Shown here: positions 24,349 to 34,316 of the stretch, in pieces
Layout: each line of letters opens with the position of its first letter
Numbering within the stretch: the first letter of the stretch is position 1
From: Pseudomonadota bacterium
GTDB lineage: Bacteria > Pseudomonadota > Gammaproteobacteria > Acidiferrobacterales > Acidiferrobacteraceae
Assembly: GCA_021819125.1 (NCBI GenBank)
Contig: JAKARW010000011.1
Location: 1 to 35,270, forward strand
Length of the DNA stretch: 35,270 bases
Reading direction: 5' to 3'
Made by a program: the position numbers and the translations under genes
Notes under the pieces: generated by a model
What the model was told of the DNA's origin: nothing
The model's database searches: none
The model's input: only the letters and a program-made list of their open reading frames with translations

Positions 24349-25857
24349 TCAGCGCAGGGATGACGGCCTCGCGCGGCGTCGCCGCCATCCGGCCACGGCC
24401 ACGATAAGGGAGAGCGCCGCCAGAACGCCTCTGTCGCCCAAGCGATCATAGGGTGTGAGCCCCGCATAGGGCTGGGCGACCACCGTCAACACCCCCTCGC
24501 GAAAGGGGGCGAGCTCCGCACGGATTTGCCCGGTATGGCCAATGAGCGCCGTGATGCCATCGTTGGTCGCGATCGCCATATCGCGGCCGGCCTCGGCGGC
24601 CCGCAGTTGCGCGATCTGGAGCTGCTGGGCGGCCTCGTTCGAATGCCCATACCACGAGTCGTCGCTCACATTCACGAGCAAGGTGGCGCCCGGCAGGCCC
24701 TGCGTGACCAGGGGGCCGTAGGCAACCTCATAACAGATCGAGGCGCCGATGCGGGCGTGGGCAATGGGCAGAGGGGGCTCGGCGCCATGCCAGGGGGTAA
24801 AGCTCGCCATAGGGATGTGCAGGACATCCAGGACCGGGTTCAGCAACGCCGGCCACGGCAGATACTCGCCGAACGGTACCAGGTGGCGCTTGCGGTAGAA
24901 GCCGTCATGGCGCCCTATGCTCATGACGGCGTTGTAGACAGGCCCGTTCGGATCGTCGGCATTGCCTTCGATGAGGCCGAACAAAAAGTGGCGGCCGCCG
25001 GCGCGTGCCAGGCGCTGCATGTAGGGTATGAATCGCCGTCGCAGCTGATGCGAATAGGTGGGGATCGCGGTCTCGGGCCAGATGACCAGGTGGCCATCGC
25101 TCTTGGCGGTCAAGCGCAGATAGCGCCGGATGATCATGCGCAGCGTGCCTGGACGCCACTTGATGGTAGGCAAGACATCGCCCTGCACGAGCGAGGTGGT
25201 AACCGGGGCGCCCGCACGATGCACGAAGGTCAGTCCGGCGAGCGCCGGCGTCACGCCCAATAGAAGGAGTACCGGCAAAAGGCCCCGCCACCGCCCACGC
25301 AAGGCATCCACGGCAAGCGCGCCGGACACGGTGAGGATAAACGACAAGCCCAAGACACCCACAAGCGGCGCCCACGCCATGAGCGGCGGCAGGCTTGCCG
25401 CATACCCGACATCGAGCCAGGGAAAGCCGGTGAGAAACACCCCGCGCACCCACTCACCCAGCACCCAGATCGCGGCAAAGAGCCAGGGGTCGAGGCTGTC
25501 GCCGCCGCGCAGGCGGGCAAAGGCCGCGCAGGCAAGCCCCGCGTAGGACGCGAGTATGGCGATGAACAAGGCGCAGGCGAGCGCCGCAAGCGGCGCCGGC
25601 ATGCCGCCGAAACGCGCCAGCGTAAGATAGATCCAGGGCACACCGAAGGCAAACAGCCCCGCGCCGAAGGCCAAACCGCGAATAAAGGCCGGACGGCCGG
25701 CCACGGTCTTGAGAAGCGCGTACAGGATCGCCAGGGCGAGCGGCGCGACCCATGGCTGACGGTAGGGGGCAAAGGCCAGGTTCAAGGCCGCGCCCGCCAG
25801 GAACGCGACCGGCCACCGCGGAAATCCGCTAACCGGCCACTTGGCTTTCTTCAGCAA
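24349..25857 (-). CDS. lnt: Apolipoprotein N-acyltransferase
   Basis: Inner-membrane enzyme that adds the third acyl chain to lipoproteins before Lol sorting. The first 210 or so residues form several membrane spans (for example FLAGAALNLAFA, PLALAILYALL, FGAGLFAFGVPWIYL). The periplasmic nitrilase-like domain then shows the catalytic triad Glu262 (IWPETAIPTY), Lys323 (FYRKRHLVPFGEY) and Cys375 (SICYEVAYG). A final membrane span near LGDRGVLAALSLIVAVAG is followed by a basic tail. The product has 502 residues, normal. The start lies inside corC, a 29-base overlap, as part of the miaB–phoH–ybeY–corC–lnt run. Confidence 0.97.
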   Translation of the reverse strand: MLKKAKWPVSGFPRWPVAFLAGAALNLAFAPYRQPWVAPLALAILYALLKTVAGRPAFIRGLAFGAGLFAFGVPWIYLTLARFGGMPAPLAALACALFIAILASYAGLACAAFARLRGGDSLDPWLFAAIWVLGEWVRGVFLTGFPWLDVGYAASLPPLMAWAPLVGVLGLSFILTVSGALAVDALRGRWRGLLPVLLLLGVTPALAGLTFVHRAGAPVTTSLVQGDVLPTIKWRPGTLRMIIRRYLRLTAKSDGHLVIWPETAIPTYSHQLRRRFIPYMQRLARAGGRHFLFGLIEGNADDPNGPVYNAVMSIGRHDGFYRKRHLVPFGEYLPWPALLNPVLDVLHIPMASFTPWHGAEPPLPIAHARIGASICYEVAYGPLVTQGLPGATLLVNVSDDSWYGHSNEAAQQLQIAQLRAAEAGRDMAIATNDGITALIGHTGQIRAELAPFREGVLTVVAQPYAGLTPYDRLGDRGVLAALSLIVAVAGWRRRRARPSSLR

Positions 25858-26692
25858 TCGGAACGACTTTCAGGAGATGGACACGCCGCGAGTCGGCACG
25901 CAGCACCTCGAACCGCAACCCGCCGATGTCGAGGCGCTCGCCACGCTTGGGGACACGACCGAGCGCGGTCATGACGAGGCCGCCGATGGTATCCACCTCC
26001 TCGTCATCGTAATGGGTGCCGAAATATTCGTTGAACTCCTTGATCGGGGTAAGCGCCTTGGCCACGAACTCGTGTTCGGCCCGCTGCATGATCATGACGT
26101 CATCGGCATCGAAATCGTGCTCGTCTTCGATGTCGCCCACGATCTGCTCCAGGACATCCTCGATCGTGACAAGACCCGCCACGCCACCATACTCGTCGAC
26201 CACGATAGCCATGTGATTGCGACTGGAACGAAAATCGCGCAGCAGAACATCGAGGCGCTTGCTCTCCGGCACGAATACCGCCGGCCGCAACAGATCGTAG
26301 ACATTGAACGACGCGCGTTGCTCGTTATGGAAATACCGCAGCAGATCCTTCGCCAAAAGGATCCCCACGACCTTGTCCTTGTCCCCATCGATCACCGGGA
26401 AGCGTGAGTGACCGGTCTCGATGACCCGCGGCAGATAACTTTCAGGCGACTCCTCGCGATCGATCACATCCATTTGCGCGCGCGGGACCATGATGTCGCG
26501 GACCCGCATCTCGGCGACCTGGAATACCCCCTCGATCATATCGAGGGCGTCGCTTCCTATAAGCCCGCGTTCGTGGGCATCGCGCAACGTCTCGCGCAAC
26601 GCGTCCCGATCCTCCGGCGCCCCCCATAAGACATGCCCCAACCGGTCGAGGAACGACCGCCCAGGTCCGTGGCCACTATCGTCCTGAGCCAT
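25829..26692 (-). CDS. corC: CorC/YbeX-family CBS-domain protein
   Basis: A 287-residue cytoplasmic protein with two CBS domains (about residues 62-125 and 130-185: VRDIMVPRAQMDVIDREESP; HMAIVVDEYGGVAGLVTIED) and a C-terminal CorC/HlyC transporter-associated domain (about 205-282). It lacks the membrane DUF21 region, as YbeX does. YbeX has been linked to magnesium homeostasis and ribosome metabolism. It starts three bases after the ybeY stop and overlaps the lnt start; the ybeZ–ybeY–ybeX–lnt order is the same as in E. coli. Confidence 0.95.
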   Translation of the reverse strand: MAQDDSGHGPGRSFLDRLGHVLWGAPEDRDALRETLRDAHERGLIGSDALDMIEGVFQVAEMRVRDIMVPRAQMDVIDREESPESYLPRVIETGHSRFPVIDGDKDKVVGILLAKDLLRYFHNEQRASFNVYDLLRPAVFVPESKRLDVLLRDFRSSRNHMAIVVDEYGGVAGLVTIEDVLEQIVGDIEDEHDFDADDVMIMQRAEHEFVAKALTPIKEFNEYFGTHYDDEEVDTIGGLVMTALGRVPKRGERLDIGGLRFEVLRADSRRVHLLKVVPIAEESQVAG

Positions 26693-26695
26693 GGC

Positions 26696-27148
26696 TCACT
26701 GATAGGGGTCCGTAAACCCCATACCCGTCAATATCCGTGTCTCCCGCGCTTCCATTACCCGTGCGTCCTGGTCTGTCTCGTGGTCGAACCCTTGAAGGTG
26801 CAGTATACCGTGAATGACGAGATGCGCCCAATGGTCGTTTTCCGGACGGCCGGCCTTCAAGGCCTCGGCCTTCACGAGCGGCGCGCAAATGACGATGTCA
26901 CCCAGAAACCGGATCTTGCCCAAGGGCGCGTCATCATACGGAAAGGACAACACGTTGGTCGGCCCGGTCCGCCCCCGAAACCGCGTGTTGAGCTCCGCCG
27001 CCTCCGATTCGGCGACGATACGCAGGCCCACGCGCACGCTGCCCTCGGTATCCGCGAGCGCCGCCTTGCACCAGCGGATGAATGCCGGACGCACAGGCAC
27101 GGCACAACCATCACACGCCACCGTAAGATCGATATGCGCGCGGCGCAC
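26696..27148 (-). CDS. ybeY: Endoribonuclease YbeY (16S rRNA maturation)
   Basis: Metal-dependent RNase for 16S rRNA 3' maturation and ribosome quality control. The zinc motif is HGILHLQGFDH at residues 113-123, with His113, His117 and His123 as ligands. The preceding RFRGRTGPTNVLSFPYDD and LGDIVIC are also conserved. The start is GTG at 27148, two bases after the phoH stop; no in-frame ATG fits. The product has 150 residues. The cysteines near the N-terminus (Cys12, Cys15, Cys27) are not a family feature. Confidence 0.96.
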   Translation of the reverse strand: MRRAHIDLTVACDGCAVPVRPAFIRWCKAALADTEGSVRVGLRIVAESEAAELNTRFRGRTGPTNVLSFPYDDAPLGKIRFLGDIVICAPLVKAEALKAGRPENDHWAHLVIHGILHLQGFDHETDQDARVMEARETRILTGMGFTDPYQ

Positions 27149-27150
27149 GC

Positions 27151-28125
27151 CTAGGACACGTCCTGTTGCGCGCTGCGCTCGCGCGCTTCATAGGCCTCGA
27201 CGATGCGCTGCACCAATGGGTGACGCACCACGTCGGCACTGGCGAAATGCGTGAACGCTATCCCTTCCACATCCTTTAGGATGTGCAGCGCCTGACGCAA
27301 ACCGGATAGTTCCGGGCGCGGTAGATCGACCTGTGTGACGTCCCCCGTGACCACCGCAGTAGACCCGAAGCCAAGGCGCGTCAGAAACATCTTCATCTGC
27401 TCGGCGGTGGTGTTTTGGGCCTCGTCTAGGATAATGAAGGATTCATTCAATGTCCGTCCGCGCATGAACGCAAGCGGCGCGATCTCGATCACGCCCTTTT
27501 CGATAAGCTTTGCGACCCGCTCGGGGCCGAGCATGTCGTGCAGGGCATCATAGAGTGGTCGCAGATAAGGATCCACCTTCTGTTCAAGATCGCCCGGCAG
27601 GAAGCCCAGGCGCTCGCCGGCCTCCACCGCCGGACGGACCAGAACCACGCGCTGCGCGCGCCCGGTTTCCAGGGCGTCTATGGCGCAGGCGACCGCAAGG
27701 AAGGTCTTGCCGGTACCGGCGGGTCCCGCGCCAAAGGTCACGTCGTGGGTCAAGATCTTGCGAATGTAATCGCGCTGCGCATCGGTACGCCCGTAGACGC
27801 GCTGCTTTGGCATGCGCAACTCGGTGGGCGGATCGCGGTCATCGCGGGTTCTCGATACCTCTTTCAGCGCCATATTGACCCCCGAAGGTGTGATGGCCTG
27901 GGATTGTCCTGTAACCGCGTAGAGTGCGGTGATCAGGCGTTGGGCGTGGCGGGCTTGATCATGATGGCCGATTATGCGGAATTGATTGCCGCGGTTTGCG
28001 ATCTCCACCCCGAGACTGCCCTCGATCTGCCGAAGATGCTCGTCGAGTTGACCACAAAGACGGGACAGCCGTTCGCTGTCGGGGGGTTGGACGGAAAACT
28101 GTATCGCTTGGGGCTTCGTGCTCAA
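27151..28125 (-). CDS. ybeZ: PhoH-like ATPase (YbeZ)
   Basis: PhoH-family P-loop ATPase of 324 residues, functionally linked to YbeY in rRNA processing. Walker A is GPAGTGKT at residues 134-141, and Walker B is [11 protein letters not shown]. Other marks are the start of the ATPase domain [27 protein letters not shown] and [12 protein letters not shown]. An N-terminal region of about 80 residues looks KH-like. The start is TTG at 28125, overlapping the miaB stop as TTGA, so translation is probably coupled to miaB. No better ATG exists nearby. Confidence 0.95.
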
Positions 28126-29501
28126 GGAATAGCGGCCTCCCTTTGCTTCACTATAGTCGACAAAACGTCCGTTTCGACCGCCAGCAGGCGGCCGCGCAAG
28201 GAATTGGGCCGGACCTCGAGGATTTCAACGGTGGCGAAGCGGCCGACCAGATCCTGGCCACCCCCCGGAAAATTCACGACCCGATTGTTCGCGGTCCGTC
28301 CCGACAGATCGCCGCGTCCGCGCGGGGCGTGGCGATCGACCAGGATCCGCTCGACGCCCCCGATCATGCCGCGGCTGATGTCGGCGGCATGCTCGAGATT
28401 TCGCGCCTGCACGCGCGCTAAGCGCTCGGCCTTCATAAGGGCCGGCACGTCGTCTGGAAGCGAAGCCGCCGGCGTGCCAGGCCGCGGGCTATAAGCGAAA
28501 CTGTAGGACAAATCGAACCTCATTTCCTCGATCAGCGCCATGGTAGCCGCGAAATCCTCGTCAGTCTCCCCCGGGAAACCCACGATAATATCGGTCGAGA
28601 GACTGATGCCGGGCCGTACGCACCTAAGCCTTTCGACCTTGTCGCGATATTCGGCCACCGTGTATCCGCGCTTCATGCGCGCAAGAATCCTGTCCGACCC
28701 GCTTTGCACGGGCAGGTGGAGATGGCTTACGAGCTTGTCCTCGGCGGCAAAGGCATCGAGCAAAGTACCCCCGAACTCGAGGGGGTGGGAGGTCGTGAAA
28801 CGGATGCGCCCGATCTCGTCGATTTGCGCGACATAGGCTATGAGGGTCGCAAGATCGGCCGCGGTGCCGTCGCGACGGCGGCCCTGGTAGGCATTCACGT
28901 TCTGGCCGAGCAGTGTGACCTCGCGCACGCCTTGTTCGGCAAGCGCGGCAATCTCCGCCAGGACATCGTCAAACGGCCGGCTGAACTCCTGGCCGCGGGT
29001 GTAGGGCACCACGCAAAAACTGCAATACTTGCTGCACCCTTCCATGATCGACACGAAGGCCCGTGGCCCGTCGGCACGCGGCTCCGGAAGGTTGTCGAAC
29101 TTCTCCATCTCCACAAACGCGATGTCGACGCGCGGATTCCTGGCGCGCGCGCAGGCCAGGAGCGCCGGCACCCGATGCAAGGTCTGGGGACCGAATACGA
29201 GGTCGACATAGGGCGCGCGCCGCAGAATCTCCTCGCCCTCCTGGCTCGCCACGCATCCGCCGACACCGATCACGACCCCCGGACGCGCCGCCTTCCATTC
29301 GTTTAGCCGGCCGAGGTCGGAAAACAGCTTTTCCTGGGCCTTCTCGCGCACCGAACAGCTGTTCACGAGCAAGACATCCGCGCGTGCCGGGTCGTCCACG
29401 CGCACCAACCCACAGGCCTCTCGCAATAGATCCGCAAGCCGGGCCGAGTCGTACTCGTTCATCTGACAACCGTAGGTCTTGATATAGACAGCGCCCGCCA
29501 T
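28122..29501 (-). CDS. miaB: tRNA-2-methylthio-N6-isopentenyladenosine methylthiotransferase MiaB
   Basis: Radical-SAM enzyme that adds the methylthio group to i6A37 in tRNAs. The N-terminal domain cluster uses Cys12 ([11 protein letters not shown]), Cys49 (NSCSVREKA) and Cys83 (GGCVA). The radical-SAM motif is Cys156, Cys160 and Cys163 in [17 protein letters not shown]. The TRAM domain covers about residues 385-450 and ends near [14 protein letters not shown]. The product has 459 residues, normal. The ATG has AAGGAG five bases upstream. It is the first gene of the miaB–ybeZ–ybeY–corC–lnt run, so the promoter should lie in the 323 bases upstream. Confidence 0.98.
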
Positions 29502-29824: not shown

Positions 29825-30430
29825 CTATGTGCCAGGCGCTACGGTTTCAGCGACCCCGTCCTTCAAGGTGATGCGGCGCACCTCGATCGGCACCCCGCTG
29901 CCGGTATCGAAGGTCACGGCCGCCTCGAGGCCTCTGCGCGCGATCTGCTCGGGATCGGCCTCATGATCGTACACCGCGTGCATGGCCCCAAGCGCGTACT
30001 GTTCACCGGAGCCGAAGGCATAGAACTTGGTGTATTCAAGCACCGTCCGCTTGGAACAAACTCCGAAAATTCCATGGGCATTGGCAATCAAAAGGCTCAC
30101 CTGCATGGATTCGAAGGCGTCTTCGCCACCCTCTTCGTCAAGCCTCAGGAAGTAATGATCCTTCAACATGGCGTGGAGCTGCAGGCTCGTCTTATAGATG
30201 TCATTCACATCCTTGAACGACCGCCGGCAAGAGGTCTCCTGGAAGATGTTCCTGAGCGCCATGTCCATGGCCGCATGCCCGGTCACGGCAAGCCAGCTAT
30301 GATCGACCCGGATAAGCTTGCTCGCGTTCTTGACGAAATCCGCCGATTCGCGCTGATCACCATATGTGCCCAGGGTATCAGCGCCGATCACAGCCGTATC
30401 GCCCTTGCGAACCACCACTATCGTCGTCAT
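29825..30430 (-). CDS. Proteasome-like Ntn hydrolase, best fit to the BPH family (HslV relative)
   Basis: A 201-residue protein of the proteasome beta/HslV superfamily. I chose ATG 30430 because it gives MTTIVVVRKGDTAVIGADTL. Removal of Met exposes Thr1 as nucleophile, and with that numbering Asp17 and Lys33 fall exactly on the catalytic positions, with GSGE (Ser140) near the place of the conserved GSG serine. It differs from HslV, which lacks the insert around residues 65-105, and from Anbu, which starts MTYCVAI-like. The pattern fits the proteobacterial proteasome homologue BPH, studied in Thiobacillus and Cupriavidus, which forms double heptamer rings. No hslU or other ATPase is adjacent. 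It is divergent from glcF. Superfamily sure, family probable, substrate unknown. Confidence 0.82.
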   Translation of the reverse strand: MTTIVVVRKGDTAVIGADTLGTYGDQRESADFVKNASKLIRVDHSWLAVTGHAAMDMALRNIFQETSCRRSFKDVNDIYKTSLQLHAMLKDHYFLRLDEEGGEDAFESMQVSLLIANAHGIFGVCSKRTVLEYTKFYAFGSGEQYALGAMHAVYDHEADPEQIARRGLEAAVTFDTGSGVPIEVRRITLKDGVAETVAPGT

Positions 30431-30490
30431 AGCCCGTCCCGCAAAACCGTCGCCGTAATCGTGGCGCACCCATACGTCCCGCAGGCCACT

Positions 30491-30520
30491 TTGACCCGCG
30501 GCCGCCCGTCCCTTTACTAT
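30491..30520 (+). promoter_or_regulatory. Candidate sigma-70 promoter of glcF
   Basis: TTGACC (30491-30496) and TACTAT (30515-30520) are separated by 18 bases, 5/6 and 4/6 matches to the -35 and -10 boxes. Transcription would begin near 30527, about 22 bases before the glcF ATG at 30549. This also argues against the in-frame upstream ATG at 30519. Confidence 0.45.
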
Positions 30521-30548
30521 GTACGCAGTATACGGTCGCCGTCAGCCC

Positions 30549-31769
30549 ATGAGCAATCCATCGAATCACCCGATAGTCCCGCCGCTTAAGGACTGTGTGC
30601 ACCGTGCGCAGGAGCTCTTGCGCGCCTGCGTGCATTGCGGTTTTTGCAATGCCACGTGTCCCACCTACATCCTGACTGGCGATGAGCGCGAGGGTCCGCG
30701 CGGCCGTCTCTACCTTATGAAAGACCTGCTAGCAGGCACGGCCCCGGGCGCCGATCTCGAACCACTCAGCCATTGCCTGAGCTGCCGGTCTTGCGAGACC
30801 ACCTGTCCGGCGGGGGTCCATTACAGTGAGATCCTAGACACGGTACGTGAACATACCGAGGGCGAACGGTCGCGGACGGAGCGCGCCCTGGACCGCCTCT
30901 CGATCGCCGCGCTTTCCGCGCGCCGGCCGCTTGCCGCGATCATGGGCGGCGCGCGCCGTCTGCGGCCATTCATCCCCCAGGCCCTCAAACAGCGCGTGCT
31001 GGGTAGCACCGAAGGGCTCGAGTGGCCGGTGGCGCGCCACGCGCGGCGCGTCGGGTTGCTCGTTGGTTGTGTTCAGCCGGCGCTGCGCCCCGACCTCGAC
31101 ATCAAGGCGGCGCTTGTCCTCGATCGTCTCGGCATCAGTGCGCAGCGGGTCGGGCCGGGCTGCTGCGGGGCGCTCCCCTTTCACCTCCATGCCCATGACG
31201 AGGGTCGGTCGACGGCGCTCGCGACACTCGCCTGGGCCAAGACCGGCGATTGGGAAGGCTTTACCAGCACCGCCAGCGGATGCACGGCGTTTCTGAAAGA
31301 CTACCCGCGGCTCTTTCAGGGCACAAAGGCCGCAGACGGCGCCCAGGCGTTCGCCGCCACCGTGACCGACATCGCCGCGTGGATCGATCCGGCGCACCTC
31401 CCCCGGCTTTCGGAACGACAACGACACCGCATCGCCTGGCATGCGCCGTGCAGCTTGCAACATGCCCTGAAGGAGGCCGGACGCGTGGAGATCATCCTGC
31501 GAGCGCTGGGCCACACACTCGTCCCGGTGGCCGACAGCGCGTTATGTTGCGGCTCGGCGGGACCGTACTCCCTGCGTCACCCGCGCTGGGCCACCGCCCT
31601 CGGCCGACGCAAGTGGCAGTCCTTGACCGGTGCCGATCCCGAGATGGTCGTAACCGCCAACATCGGCTGCCAGCAGCACCTGGCGCATCATGGCGATCGC
31701 CCCATCCACCACTGGCTCGATCTCGTCTACGACGCCCTCACCAATCCGGATAAAGCCGACCGCGGTTGA
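30549..31769 (+). CDS. glcF: Glycolate oxidase iron-sulfur subunit GlcF
   Basis: Iron-sulfur subunit of glycolate dehydrogenase, passing electrons from the GlcD/GlcE flavoproteins to the membrane quinone pool. Two 4Fe-4S ferredoxin motifs are complete: Cys27, Cys30, Cys33, Cys37 (CVHCGFCNATCPTY) and Cys76, Cys79, Cys82, Cys86 (CLSCRSCETTCPAG). Two CCG domains follow, with GPGCCGALPFHLHAHDEG and LCCGSAGPYSLRHP. The 406-residue length is usual. The ATG at 30549 gives the usual short N-terminus. Unlike the standard glcDEF operon, this gene faces glcE on the opposite strand and overlaps it by 32 bases at the 3' end. Confidence 0.95.
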   Translation: MSNPSNHPIVPPLKDCVHRAQELLRACVHCGFCNATCPTYILTGDEREGPRGRLYLMKDLLAGTAPGADLEPLSHCLSCRSCETTCPAGVHYSEILDTVREHTEGERSRTERALDRLSIAALSARRPLAAIMGGARRLRPFIPQALKQRVLGSTEGLEWPVARHARRVGLLVGCVQPALRPDLDIKAALVLDRLGISAQRVGPGCCGALPFHLHAHDEGRSTALATLAWAKTGDWEGFTSTASGCTAFLKDYPRLFQGTKAADGAQAFAATVTDIAAWIDPAHLPRLSERQRHRIAWHAPCSLQHALKEAGRVEIILRALGHTLVPVADSALCCGSAGPYSLRHPRWATALGRRKWQSLTGADPEMVVTANIGCQQHLAHHGDRPIHHWLDLVYDALTNPDKADRG

Positions 31770-32787
31770 GGATGGCACGCGGGTCCATGGCCGCCTTGAC
31801 GCGCGCCATGAGCGCCATGGTCGCAGGCGCGGGCGCGGCCCACGGACCTTGGCTGCGATCGGCGCCCAGGAGACGCATGGCCTGTCCGCGGTAGCGCGCG
31901 GCGTGCTCGAGGACCGGCTGCGGATCTCCCGAAAACCGCCAGAAACGCTGCGCGCCCGCCCAATCGATGAGGGTCTCCTGGGGGTCCCAGGGCGCATCCG
32001 ATGGCACGAGCAGACGCCACAGATCACCCGGCTGCGAAAAAAACGGTCCCCGCAGGTCACGCAACTCGTGAAAAAGCGTGGGCTCTCCCGCCTCGCCGCC
32101 GATGATCTGGCACGCTGCCGCCACCCGCTCCTCGCGCCCTGCCAACCGCACATGTAATACCCCATCGGCATAACAGGCGCCGGTCACCGGCAAGGCGCCC
32201 TCCCAACGCCTCAAGGCGGCATGCGCCGTTCGCCAGTCCAAGGCAAGATCACGCACCACCTCGGCGTCGGCGCACCGGGCCACGCGCAGACTGACATCCA
32301 AAAGCAGCCCCAAGGTGCCGTAGGACCCAACCATGAGCCGCGCGACATCGAACCCTGCGACGTTCTTCAATACCTGCCCGCCGAACCGCAGAATCTCACC
32401 GGTCCCGGAAACGATGCGGGCACCGAGCACGGCATCGCGTAACGCCCCGCTATAAGGGCGCGAGGGGCCGGTGAGTCCGATGGCAAGTGCCCCGCCGATC
32501 GTAGAGGCCGCGCTGAAACGAGGGACGTCGACCATCAGGACCTGCCGCTCCCGGCCCAGAACCTCCTCGAGGGCAACCATGGGGGTGCCGGCGCGGACCG
32601 TCACCACGAACTCCGTCGGGTCGTACTCCACGATCCCGGTATGCGCTGCCACCGAAAGCGGGGCCCCGGCCGGCGACCGCCCAAAGGCCCGCCGCGTCCC
32701 GCCGGCCACGATCTCAAGGGGGGCGTCGGCGTCGTAGGCGGCGCGCACCGCGGCGGCGAGCGCCAGGGCGTGGTCATGGTCTTTCAT
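31738..32787 (-). CDS. glcE: Glycolate oxidase FAD-binding subunit GlcE
   Basis: Second FAD-binding subunit of glycolate dehydrogenase, 349 residues. The FAD_binding_4 fold shows LEIVAGGTRRAFGR, TVRAGTPMVALEEVLG, STIGGALAIGLTGPSRPYSG and GQVLKNVAGFDVARLMVGSY, the last typical of GlcE. The C-terminus ends MDPRAILNRGRLYPDW. I chose ATG 32787, preceded by GAGGGG, because the longer frame to 33012 runs into glcD sequence. It lies 47 bases after the glcD stop on the same strand, so the two are probably cotranscribed. Confidence 0.95.
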   Translation of the reverse strand: MKDHDHALALAAAVRAAYDADAPLEIVAGGTRRAFGRSPAGAPLSVAAHTGIVEYDPTEFVVTVRAGTPMVALEEVLGRERQVLMVDVPRFSAASTIGGALAIGLTGPSRPYSGALRDAVLGARIVSGTGEILRFGGQVLKNVAGFDVARLMVGSYGTLGLLLDVSLRVARCADAEVVRDLALDWRTAHAALRRWEGALPVTGACYADGVLHVRLAGREERVAAACQIIGGEAGEPTLFHELRDLRGPFFSQPGDLWRLLVPSDAPWDPQETLIDWAGAQRFWRFSGDPQPVLEHAARYRGQAMRLLGADRSQGPWAAPAPATMALMARVKAAMDPRAILNRGRLYPDW

Positions 32788-32834: not shown

Positions 32835-34316
32835 CTAGAATCGCTCGAGGCGCGAAAACGGCAGGCGCCCCTCGTGGACATGCATGCCCCCAGGCTCCAC
32901 ACACCGCGCCGGAGTCGGCACGGCCTTGCCTGGGTTTAGCAAGTGATGCGGATCGAAGGCGGACTTGAGGGCGTGGAACACCGCAAGCTCGGCCGCCGAG
33001 AACTGCGCGCACATACCATCGAGCTTTTCAACGCCGACCCCATGCTCGCCGCTGATCGTGCCCCCGTGACGGAGACAAAGACGCAGAATATCGGCGCCCA
33101 GGGCCTCGACGCGCTCGAGTTGTCCGGGGATCGCGGCGTCATACAGGATCAACGGGTGGAGATTTCCGTCGCCGGCATGAAAGACGTTCGCGACCGGCCG
33201 CCCATAGCGACGCGAGAGGGCCGCGATCTCGGTCAATACCGGTACCAGGGAACGGCGCGGGATCGTGCCATCCATGCAGTAGTAATCGGGCGCGAGCCGT
33301 CCCACCGCCGGGAACGCCGATTTACGGCCCAACCACAACCGGCGGCGATCCTCGTCGCGCGATGCCTGCTGCAAGGCGAACGCCCCGTGCGCCATGAAGA
33401 TCGCGCGCAACCGCTCCCCGTCCAAAACCACCGCCAGATCGTCGCCATCGACCTCCGCCAGGACCACCGCCGCCGACCCCTCGGGGTAGCGGATGCCGGT
33501 GTAGTCCTGGGCGGCCGATAACGCGAGACTATCCATGAGCTCTAATCCGGCCGGGATGATCCCCTCCGAGACCACTTGGCTTACGCTCGCCGCCGCATCC
33601 TCAAGCGACCGGAAGGCCGCGAGCCACGCCACGGTCGCCGGGGGTCTCGGCCGTAACCGCACCGTTATCTCGACGACCACCCCAAGCAATCCCTCGGAAC
33701 CCGTCAACAGGGCCGCAAGATCCAGTGGGGCCTCGCCTGTCGGACCGCCGATCTCGTGAAGGACGCCGTCTGCGGTAAAAAACTTAAGGGCCAGAACATT
33801 GTGCGTAGTCAGTCCATACTTCAGACAGTGCACGCCGCCTGCGTTTTCGGCCACATTACCGCCGATCGTGCAGGCGATCTGCGAAGATGGGTCCGGGGCA
33901 TAAAAAAGACCGAAGGGCTGCGCGGCCTCCGAGATCGCCAGGTTACGGACCCCGGGCTCCACGCGTGCCAGCCGGCAGTCCGGGTCCAACGCCACGATGC
34001 GATCGAGACGCGCAAGCCCCAGAACAACCCCTTCCGGGTGGGGAAGGGCGCCGCCGGATAGGCCCGTACCGGCGCCGCGCGCCACGACCGGGACGCCATA
34101 TTCCGTGCACAAGGCCAGCACCTGCCCGACCTCGGCTACGGTTCGCGGCAGCGCCACCGCCAACGGCCGGGCCCGATAGACCGGCAAGCCGTCGCACTCA
34201 TACACCGCCACATCCGCGGATTTTTGAAGAAGACCGTCGGGCGGTAGGATGCGCCCTAGGCGCCGCATGAAGGCCGCAGGCCAGGGACGCCGATTGGGCT
34301 CTGCGTTTTCGTTCAT
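32835..34316 (-). CDS. glcD: Glycolate oxidase subunit GlcD (FAD-linked)
   Basis: Main flavoprotein subunit, oxidising glycolate to glyoxylate. The 493-residue product has the FAD-binding VARGAGTGLSGGALPHPEGV, TIGGNVAENAGGVHCLKYGL and LTGSEGLLGVVVEITVRL. The cap domain and catalytic region carry VFHAGDGNLHPLILYD and GTISGEHGVGVEKLD, and the end reads FDPHHLLNPGKAVPTP. Close relatives such as D-lactate dehydrogenases share these motifs, but neighbouring glcE and glcF make glycolate the likely substrate. The start ATG is seven bases after a perfect TATAAT on the minus strand. A role in 2-phosphoglycolate salvage is inferred. Confidence 0.95.
   Translation of the reverse strand: MNENAEPNRRPWPAAFMRRLGRILPPDGLLQKSADVAVYECDGLPVYRARPLAVALPRTVAEVGQVLALCTEYGVPVVARGAGTGLSGGALPHPEGVVLGLARLDRIVALDPDCRLARVEPGVRNLAISEAAQPFGLFYAPDPSSQIACTIGGNVAENAGGVHCLKYGLTTHNVLALKFFTADGVLHEIGGPTGEAPLDLAALLTGSEGLLGVVVEITVRLRPRPPATVAWLAAFRSLEDAAASVSQVVSEGIIPAGLELMDSLALSAAQDYTGIRYPEGSAAVVLAEVDGDDLAVVLDGERLRAIFMAHGAFALQQASRDEDRRRLWLGRKSAFPAVGRLAPDYYCMDGTIPRRSLVPVLTEIAALSRRYGRPVANVFHAGDGNLHPLILYDAAIPGQLERVEALGADILRLCLRHGGTISGEHGVGVEKLDGMCAQFSAAELAVFHALKSAFDPHHLLNPGKAVPTPARCVEPGGMHVHEGRLPFSRLERF

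Follow-up and report, generated by a model that had tools for sequence, protein, structure and literature searches.

A T. denitrificans-type bacterial proteasome homologue with Thr1 in the gammaproteobacterial family Acidiferrobacteraceae

The DNA under study (hereafter the window) is a stretch of 35,270 nucleotides from a Pseudomonadota bacterium of the family Acidiferrobacteraceae (contig JAKARW010000011.1; its assembly GCA_021819125.1 comprises 2.15 Mb in 108 contigs and is 99.7% complete). We investigated a 201-codon frame on the minus strand (29825-30430), beginning MTTIVVV, whose product is, judging from its sequence, a bacterial proteasome homologue (BPH) of the HslV/BPH branch. Within BPHs, it is a member of a Thr1-bearing lineage of the T. 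denitrificans type, i.e., the lineage is new and the family is known. The gene and its catalytic parts are as follows:

29825-30430, minus strand: BPH gene of 201 amino acids, identified by open reading frame, PDB match and comparison of starts and alignments; removal of the Met is expected and would expose Thr1
30425-30427, minus strand: codon (ACG) of the catalytic Thr1, aligned with Thr1 of PDB 5ovs and 5ovu
30377-30379, minus strand: codon of the catalytic Asp17, from the alignment of relatives
30317-30319, minus strand: codon of the catalytic Lys37, by alignment the equivalent of proteasome/HslV Lys33
30107-30142, minus strand: acidic pore loop at mature residues 96-107, which exceeds the HslV loop by 11-12 residues in the alignment

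Identity and catalytic residues of the window gene

The start codon assumed for this frame is corroborated by 14 named relatives (73-91% identical to the window BPH), which all use the same ATG and show no common frame upstream of it. Among the 18 Acidiferrobacteraceae genomes compared, 17 have ATG at the aligned site and one (G017) has TTG. In comparisons of the window BPH with ten relatives, the ratio of nonsynonymous to synonymous substitution rates is 0.04-0.10 for nine pairs, and the tenth pair is saturated. Given these low values, the gene is kept by selection and under strong purifying selection.

An earlier note on the window had read the gene as a BPH, a reading to be given up if profile searches placed it within HslV or Anbu or if an hslU was associated with it. 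Neither turned up, and the searches place the gene with the BPHs. In the PDB, the top matches of its protein are the solved BPHs 5ovs (E-value 3.1e-41) and 5ovu (1.3e-40) while HslV reaches 3.2e-4, and no Anbu chain is named among the 10 matches at E-values up to 1. With regard to profiles, Pfam reports the general Proteasome family PF00227 alone (32.3 bits), the HslV equivalog model of NCBIfam yields 27.5 bits at a cut-off of 157.75, and the match to the NCBIfam proteasome-beta model is far under its cut-off. The sole other proteasome-family gene found in the window genome is an hslV on a separate contig (C87:22002-22517). Since the adjoining hslU pairs with this true hslV, no hslU tied to the BPH was found. 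Searches for Anbu or 20S in the window genome gave no match, and all 18 Acidiferrobacteraceae genomes encode both hslV and hslU.

The genome's own HslV resembles the window BPH in core fold and Thr1/Asp17/Lys pattern but differs by its short pore loop, its adjacent hslU and an identity of 28.8% over 163 aligned residues. One could read the window protein as a divergent HslV served by the cell's HslU, based on the common fold family, the weak HslV model match and the HslU encoded in the genome. We consider this highly improbable: a standard hslV already adjoins hslU, the BPH matches score far better, and two of the three HslV basic residues 86/89/90 are Tyr and Leu in the aligned window protein. 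The identities HslV, Anbu and 20S were thus rejected based on the search scores, the separate hslV-hslU pair and a distinct Anbu in a relative. Anbu is likewise a proteasome-like family, but a true Anbu (258 amino acids) is a separate gene in G001 and absent from the window genome.

As a side observation, a third PF00227 gene occurs in 4 of the 18 genomes (G001, G005, G008, G013) and is absent from the window genome. We read those of G001, G005 and G008 (L183 4402-5178, L184, L185); the G001 copy is the mentioned Anbu (PDB match 7.6e-76).

In mature numbering, Thr1, Asp17, Lys37, Gly50 and Ser140 (the GSG serine) of the window BPH align with the set named for T. denitrificans BPH, i.e., Thr1, Asp17, Lys37, Gly50 and Ser139 (Fuchs et al. 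2018, PMC5777263). The nucleophile directly follows the start Met and, according to start comparison and alignment, a propeptide is absent. Thr1 and Asp17 are invariant in 15 aligned sequences. The earlier note had lined up Thr1, Asp17 and Lys33, of which the first two hold and the third does not, since the catalytic lysine is residue 37. All 18 Acidiferrobacteraceae have Lys at residue 37, which aligns with HslV Lys33 and Lys37 of T. denitrificans BPH. Residue 33 is Lys in the window BPH, Arg in 4 of the 18 and Ala in T. denitrificans BPH; as judged from these alignments, its Lys in the window is a coincidence. A single insert of about 40 residues relative to HslV, which had been proposed as well, is not found. 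At 200 residues, the mature BPH exceeds the HslV of the same genome (174) by 26, and the extra residues lie at three sites (about 4 ahead of the catalytic Lys, about 5 in an inter-helix segment, 11-12 within the pore loop) and at the C-terminus. The pore loop, located between H2 and S7, contains 6 acidic residues, a count equal to that of the T. denitrificans and C. metallidurans BPHs.

Distribution, nucleophile and origin

To survey BPH occurrence, we used a profile built on 15 close relatives. BPH is found in 18 of 18 Acidiferrobacteraceae, including the one-contig genome G001, and in 1 of 39 other genomes of the order. Matches of at least 90 bits are observed for 43 genomes in a class-wide spread of 369 (window genome included) and for 12 genomes in a phylum-wide set of 398, all of the same class. 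The remaining 106 phylum-set matches reach at most 33.4 bits; we regarded them as HslV-like and left them out of the count. Among 18 of these loci that we read, 14 show an HslV-type frame and 4 show none by text pattern. G132, G377, G329 and G315, which reach no more than 22.5 bits, were handled in the same way as the 106 matches. No genome surveyed in the order, class and phylum sets has two full-length BPHs. Carriage by plasmids or phages was rejected, since a tblastn search with the BPH protein against 72,556 plasmid records and 50,697 phage records gave 0 matches. In one genome (G240, L085) the BPH is broken into three pieces while the congeneric G100 has a whole one; the broken copy was read to its first stop and is part of no tree.

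The host is an Acidiferrobacter-like gammaproteobacterium, its class being as had been presumed. In an rpoB tree of 30 genomes Acidiferrobacteraceae form a deep gamma branch, a 23S rRNA probe site that we take to distinguish beta- from gammaproteobacteria has its gamma form in G001 and G013 of the family, and NCBI taxonomy lists Acidiferrobacter in Gammaproteobacteria.

We compared the nucleophile of 71 BPH-like rows. All 9 rows labelled beta have Thr1, while the 62 others split into 38 with Ser1 and 24 with Thr1. The beta labels stem from the rpoB tree for 6 genomes, from the beta form of the 23S site for 5 (including G730, which is outside the rpoB set) and, in the case of G768 and G781, from a shared family code. 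Concerning the 62 rows without a beta label, 22 BPH-bearing genomes were checked to be outside the beta clade of the rpoB tree, and 7 BPH-bearing genomes show the gamma-form 23S site, G001 and G013 of Acidiferrobacteraceae among them. The 24 Thr1 rows without a beta label comprise the 18 Acidiferrobacteraceae, G039, G071, G194, G205, G316 and the very divergent G102.

BPHs are already known from Gammaproteobacteria and other groups, and all those outside Betaproteobacteria are said to carry Ser1, which was used as an argument against gene transfer (Fuchs et al. 2018, PMC5777263). With Thr1 in 18 of 18 BPHs, Acidiferrobacteraceae are a clear exception to this statement. The earlier note had stressed a BPH outside its best-known range. 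This stands for the gammaproteobacterial host but is less novel than implied, since gammaproteobacterial BPHs are published; new with respect to the literature is the Thr1 nucleophile outside Betaproteobacteria.

BPH trees were built without residue 1. Besides a 79-row tree, we computed trees of 53 and 48 rows, which use 7 of the 18 family rows and from which 9 and 14 divergent rows, respectively, as well as the HslV outgroup were dropped. The BPHs of Acidiferrobacteraceae are monophyletic and group with T. denitrificans BPH, the beta genome G622 and the Ser1 family f141, which is outside beta on rpoB. The support for this union with the T. denitrificans type is 100/94 (79 rows), 99/98 (53 rows) and 100/98 (48 rows, where the long f141 rows are removed). 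We also evaluated constrained arrangements by approximately unbiased (AU) tests, in which the grouping expected from the organism tree is rejected. Placing all non-beta rows together is 55.9 log units worse (p-AU 1e-8; 53 rows), and the same constraint with f141 free costs 18.2 log units (p 0.0097; 53 rows) and without f141 16.5 log units (p 0.024; 48 rows). Holding all betas together yields p 0.003 (48 rows). Furthermore, all 18 family members have FYA[FL]G ahead of the GSG motif, and T. denitrificans, G622 and G190 have FYAYG there, while mainline BPHs have Trp.

As judged from these trees, the position of the family's BPH conflicts with the organism tree and is probably due to an old transfer, which is a simpler reading than old paralogy. 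Several points weigh against such an origin. The pairwise identities of the window BPH do not favour T. denitrificans (44.0%), given 43.3% to C. metallidurans, 46.7% to G752 (a beta with Hsp33 context) and about 43% to L043, a typical gammaproteobacterial Ser1 member. The stems of both the family and the T. denitrificans type are long branches, the AU p-values of 0.0097 and 0.024 are moderate with groups partly picked after the tree was known, and an old duplication followed by loss could yield the same tree. We therefore also considered vertical inheritance from an old Thr1-bearing gamma/beta ancestor, where the union with the T. denitrificans type results from long-branch attraction or old paralogy. 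The near-equal identities, the seemingly vertical descent of mainline beta and gamma BPHs and the deep branching of Acidiferrobacteraceae among the gammas on rpoB agree with this alternative. We nevertheless regard it as rather unlikely, since the union persists (100/98) once the longest rows are removed, the organism-tree arrangement receives an AU p of 0.024, the FYA motif is common to the family and the T. denitrificans type, and two full-length BPHs occur in no surveyed genome.

The tree requires at least 4 Thr/Ser nucleophile changes. Because of these changes and the conflict of the family's copy with the organism tree, the published Ser1-based argument against transfer loses force and is weakened.

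Conserved neighbourhood in Acidiferrobacteraceae

The BPH gene is surrounded by the following features:

30431-30548, no strand: divergent intergenic region, which holds a sigma-70-like site for glcF (30491-30520, plus strand)
30549-31769, plus strand: glcF-like iron-sulfur subunit of glycolate oxidase, the divergent neighbour (CCG and Fer4 domains)
31738-32787, minus strand: glcE-like FAD-binding subunit (profile match)
32835-34316, minus strand: glcD-like FAD-linked oxidase subunit (best family GlcD, below the curated cut-off)
28122-29501, minus strand: miaB-like radical SAM methylthiotransferase, co-directional downstream (profile and conserved context)
27151-28125, minus strand: phoH (ybeZ; profile and conserved context)
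26696-27148, minus strand: ybeY endoribonuclease gene (profile and conserved context)
25829-26692, minus strand: corC (ybeX; profile and conserved context)

The gene had been described as standing alone, divergent from a glycolate oxidase gene. The divergent orientation to glcF is correct, but the co-directional miaB-phoH-ybeY-corC genes follow 323 bp downstream. This context is conserved across Acidiferrobacteraceae: BPH diverges from glcF in 17 of 18 genomes, and 17 of 18 (window included) have miaB-phoH-ybeY-corC downstream of BPH in the same direction. In the one left over, G015, the contig (L015) ends just past BPH. The conserved block upstream of BPH contains the glcF start and its promoter-like site; no sigma-70-like site was found on the BPH strand within the divergent intergenic region. 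Among the conserved neighbours, no HslU- or ClpX-type gene is seen that could provide a dedicated AAA+ partner, while the PhoH ATPase of the ybeZYX cluster is present.

Between BPH and miaB, 6 of 18 genomes have a class-V aminotransferase, and 8 of 18 have an intact or broken 5'-nucleotidase-like gene. Both occur in G011 and neither in the window. For the aminotransferase, the best NCBIfam names are glyoxylate or pyruvate aminotransferases, all below cut-off, and its distance to BPH is 41-62 bp in G011, G014 and G016. The 5'-nucleotidase-like gene is being lost in the genus; it is whole in L008, L013 and L087 and present as shortened or frame-broken remnants in L005 (5999-6382), L006 (8667-9218) and L034.

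This neighbourhood might indicate that BPH is part of a glycolate/glyoxylate unit and degrades or polices glycolate oxidase or its partners, as the divergent glcF and the aminotransferase following BPH in some genomes would allow for. We find this quite unlikely. In G012 (L004) glcDEF is lost at this locus while BPH is kept, which weakens a glycolate-only role, the two downstream genes are inconstant, and BPH has different neighbours in other lineages. Since glcDEF is lost in L004 and the intervening genes come and go, the neighbours appear not to be required partners of BPH.

In E. coli, ybeZYX is a heat-shock operon. If this role holds here, the location of the BPH gene would agree with the published comment that operons linked to stress contain BPH genes (PMC5777263).

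Proposed function and contexts in other lineages

Compared to known systems, T. denitrificans BPH (PDB 5ovs, 5ovt; PMC5777263) is like the window BPH in Thr1, Asp17, Lys37, Gly50, GSG serine, long acidic pore loop and tree branch. It differs in overall sequence and in that its gene adjoins argG (PMC5777263), whereas the window's adjoins glcF, precedes miaB and resides in a gammaproteobacterium. The BPH of Cupriavidus metallidurans (PDB 5ovu) is similarly close in identity, catalytic set and acidic loop but belongs to another tree branch, and its gene lies inside a pyruvate dehydrogenase operon (PMC5777263). Gammaproteobacterial Ser1 BPHs resemble the window BPH in identity level and acidic loop but have Ser1 in place of Thr1, form a separate branch and are mostly located in a riboflavin operon.

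We think it likely that the window BPH is an ATP-independent double-ring Thr1 protease encoded by a fixed Acidiferrobacteraceae gene of T. denitrificans-type origin. Family, catalytic set, acidic loop, conservation and independence of the hslVU locus are direct observations. The residue pattern suggests that Met removal would expose Thr1 as nucleophile. By analogy to the T. denitrificans and C. metallidurans structures, seven subunits each would build a closed double ring with the active sites inside, the acidic pore loop may fold over the substrate, and cleavage, independent of ATP and of any AAA+ unfoldase, would be limited to certain unfolded or damaged proteins or peptides. BPH would act beside HslVU, not with HslU. 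The gene was probably gained in the family ancestor from, or in common with, the T. denitrificans-type lineage and would have stayed at the same chromosomal place since. Solved BPHs are double heptameric rings with inner active sites, where Thr1 reacts with epoxomicin and the loop closes over the ligand; according to the main text of the same study, in vitro activity is shown for no BPH (PMC5777263). To be counted on the opposite side is our AlphaFold2 monomer model from 14 close relatives, which has a mean predicted local distance difference test score (pLDDT) of 49 and was set aside.

Published BPH contexts are argG, pyruvate dehydrogenase and Hsp33 (PMC5777263). We observe all three, each in one profile-confirmed genome (G622, G658 and G752, respectively), where the beta G622 shows the argD-argF-argG-BPH context as published for T. 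denitrificans. In addition, 29 of 31 mainline Ser1 BPHs are inside a riboflavin operon nrdR-ribD-BPH-ribE-ribBA (L043-L056, L058-L063, L065-L072, L074 and L075, L053 excepted). Here, ribE (riboflavin synthase) is directly downstream on the same strand with gaps of 3-260 bp in 29 of 31 rows, ribD is directly upstream in 28 of 31, and, as far as the flanks extend, nrdR and ribBA make up the rest of the operon. The exceptions are G407 (ndk downstream) and G312. Neither riboflavin nor ribD occurs in the main text of PMC5777263, and among the papers listed we found no fitting literature on a BPH-riboflavin link or on BPH in Acidiferrobacter; the first description of BPH might name further contexts.

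Other contexts were noted in passing. In family f42 (three genomes; L081, L083, L084), a divergent Ser1 BPH-like gene is immediately followed by a putative aminopeptidase (PF10023, tested in L084). The T. denitrificans-type Ser1 BPHs of f141 (L073, L076, L077) are each followed directly by a gene resembling glycerophosphodiester phosphodiesterase, with a uvrD-like gene upstream that points the other way. In G379 (L179), a Ser1 BPH-like gene adjoins a dihydroorotase-like amidohydrolase and, by eye, an apparent pyrimidine operon.

BPH is located between ribD and ribE in most mainline gammas, next to the FAD-dependent glycolate oxidase in Acidiferrobacteraceae and, in many betas, between pyruvate dehydrogenase E2 and the FAD-dependent E3. 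Based on this, BPH might be a protease linked to the supply of flavin or the turnover of flavoenzymes. It would then remove apo-flavoproteins or set the level of a riboflavin enzyme, and Thr1 and Ser1 would have replaced each other several times during the passage of the gene from lineage to lineage. To us, this is a long shot.

The partner and substrates of BPH and the reason for its existence are named as open questions of the field (PMC5777263). Here, a Thr1 BPH is retained at a constant locus throughout a family of acidophiles, alongside a complete HslVU. The riboflavin-operon location in other lineages is a concrete, testable lead and may be the best one on BPH function.
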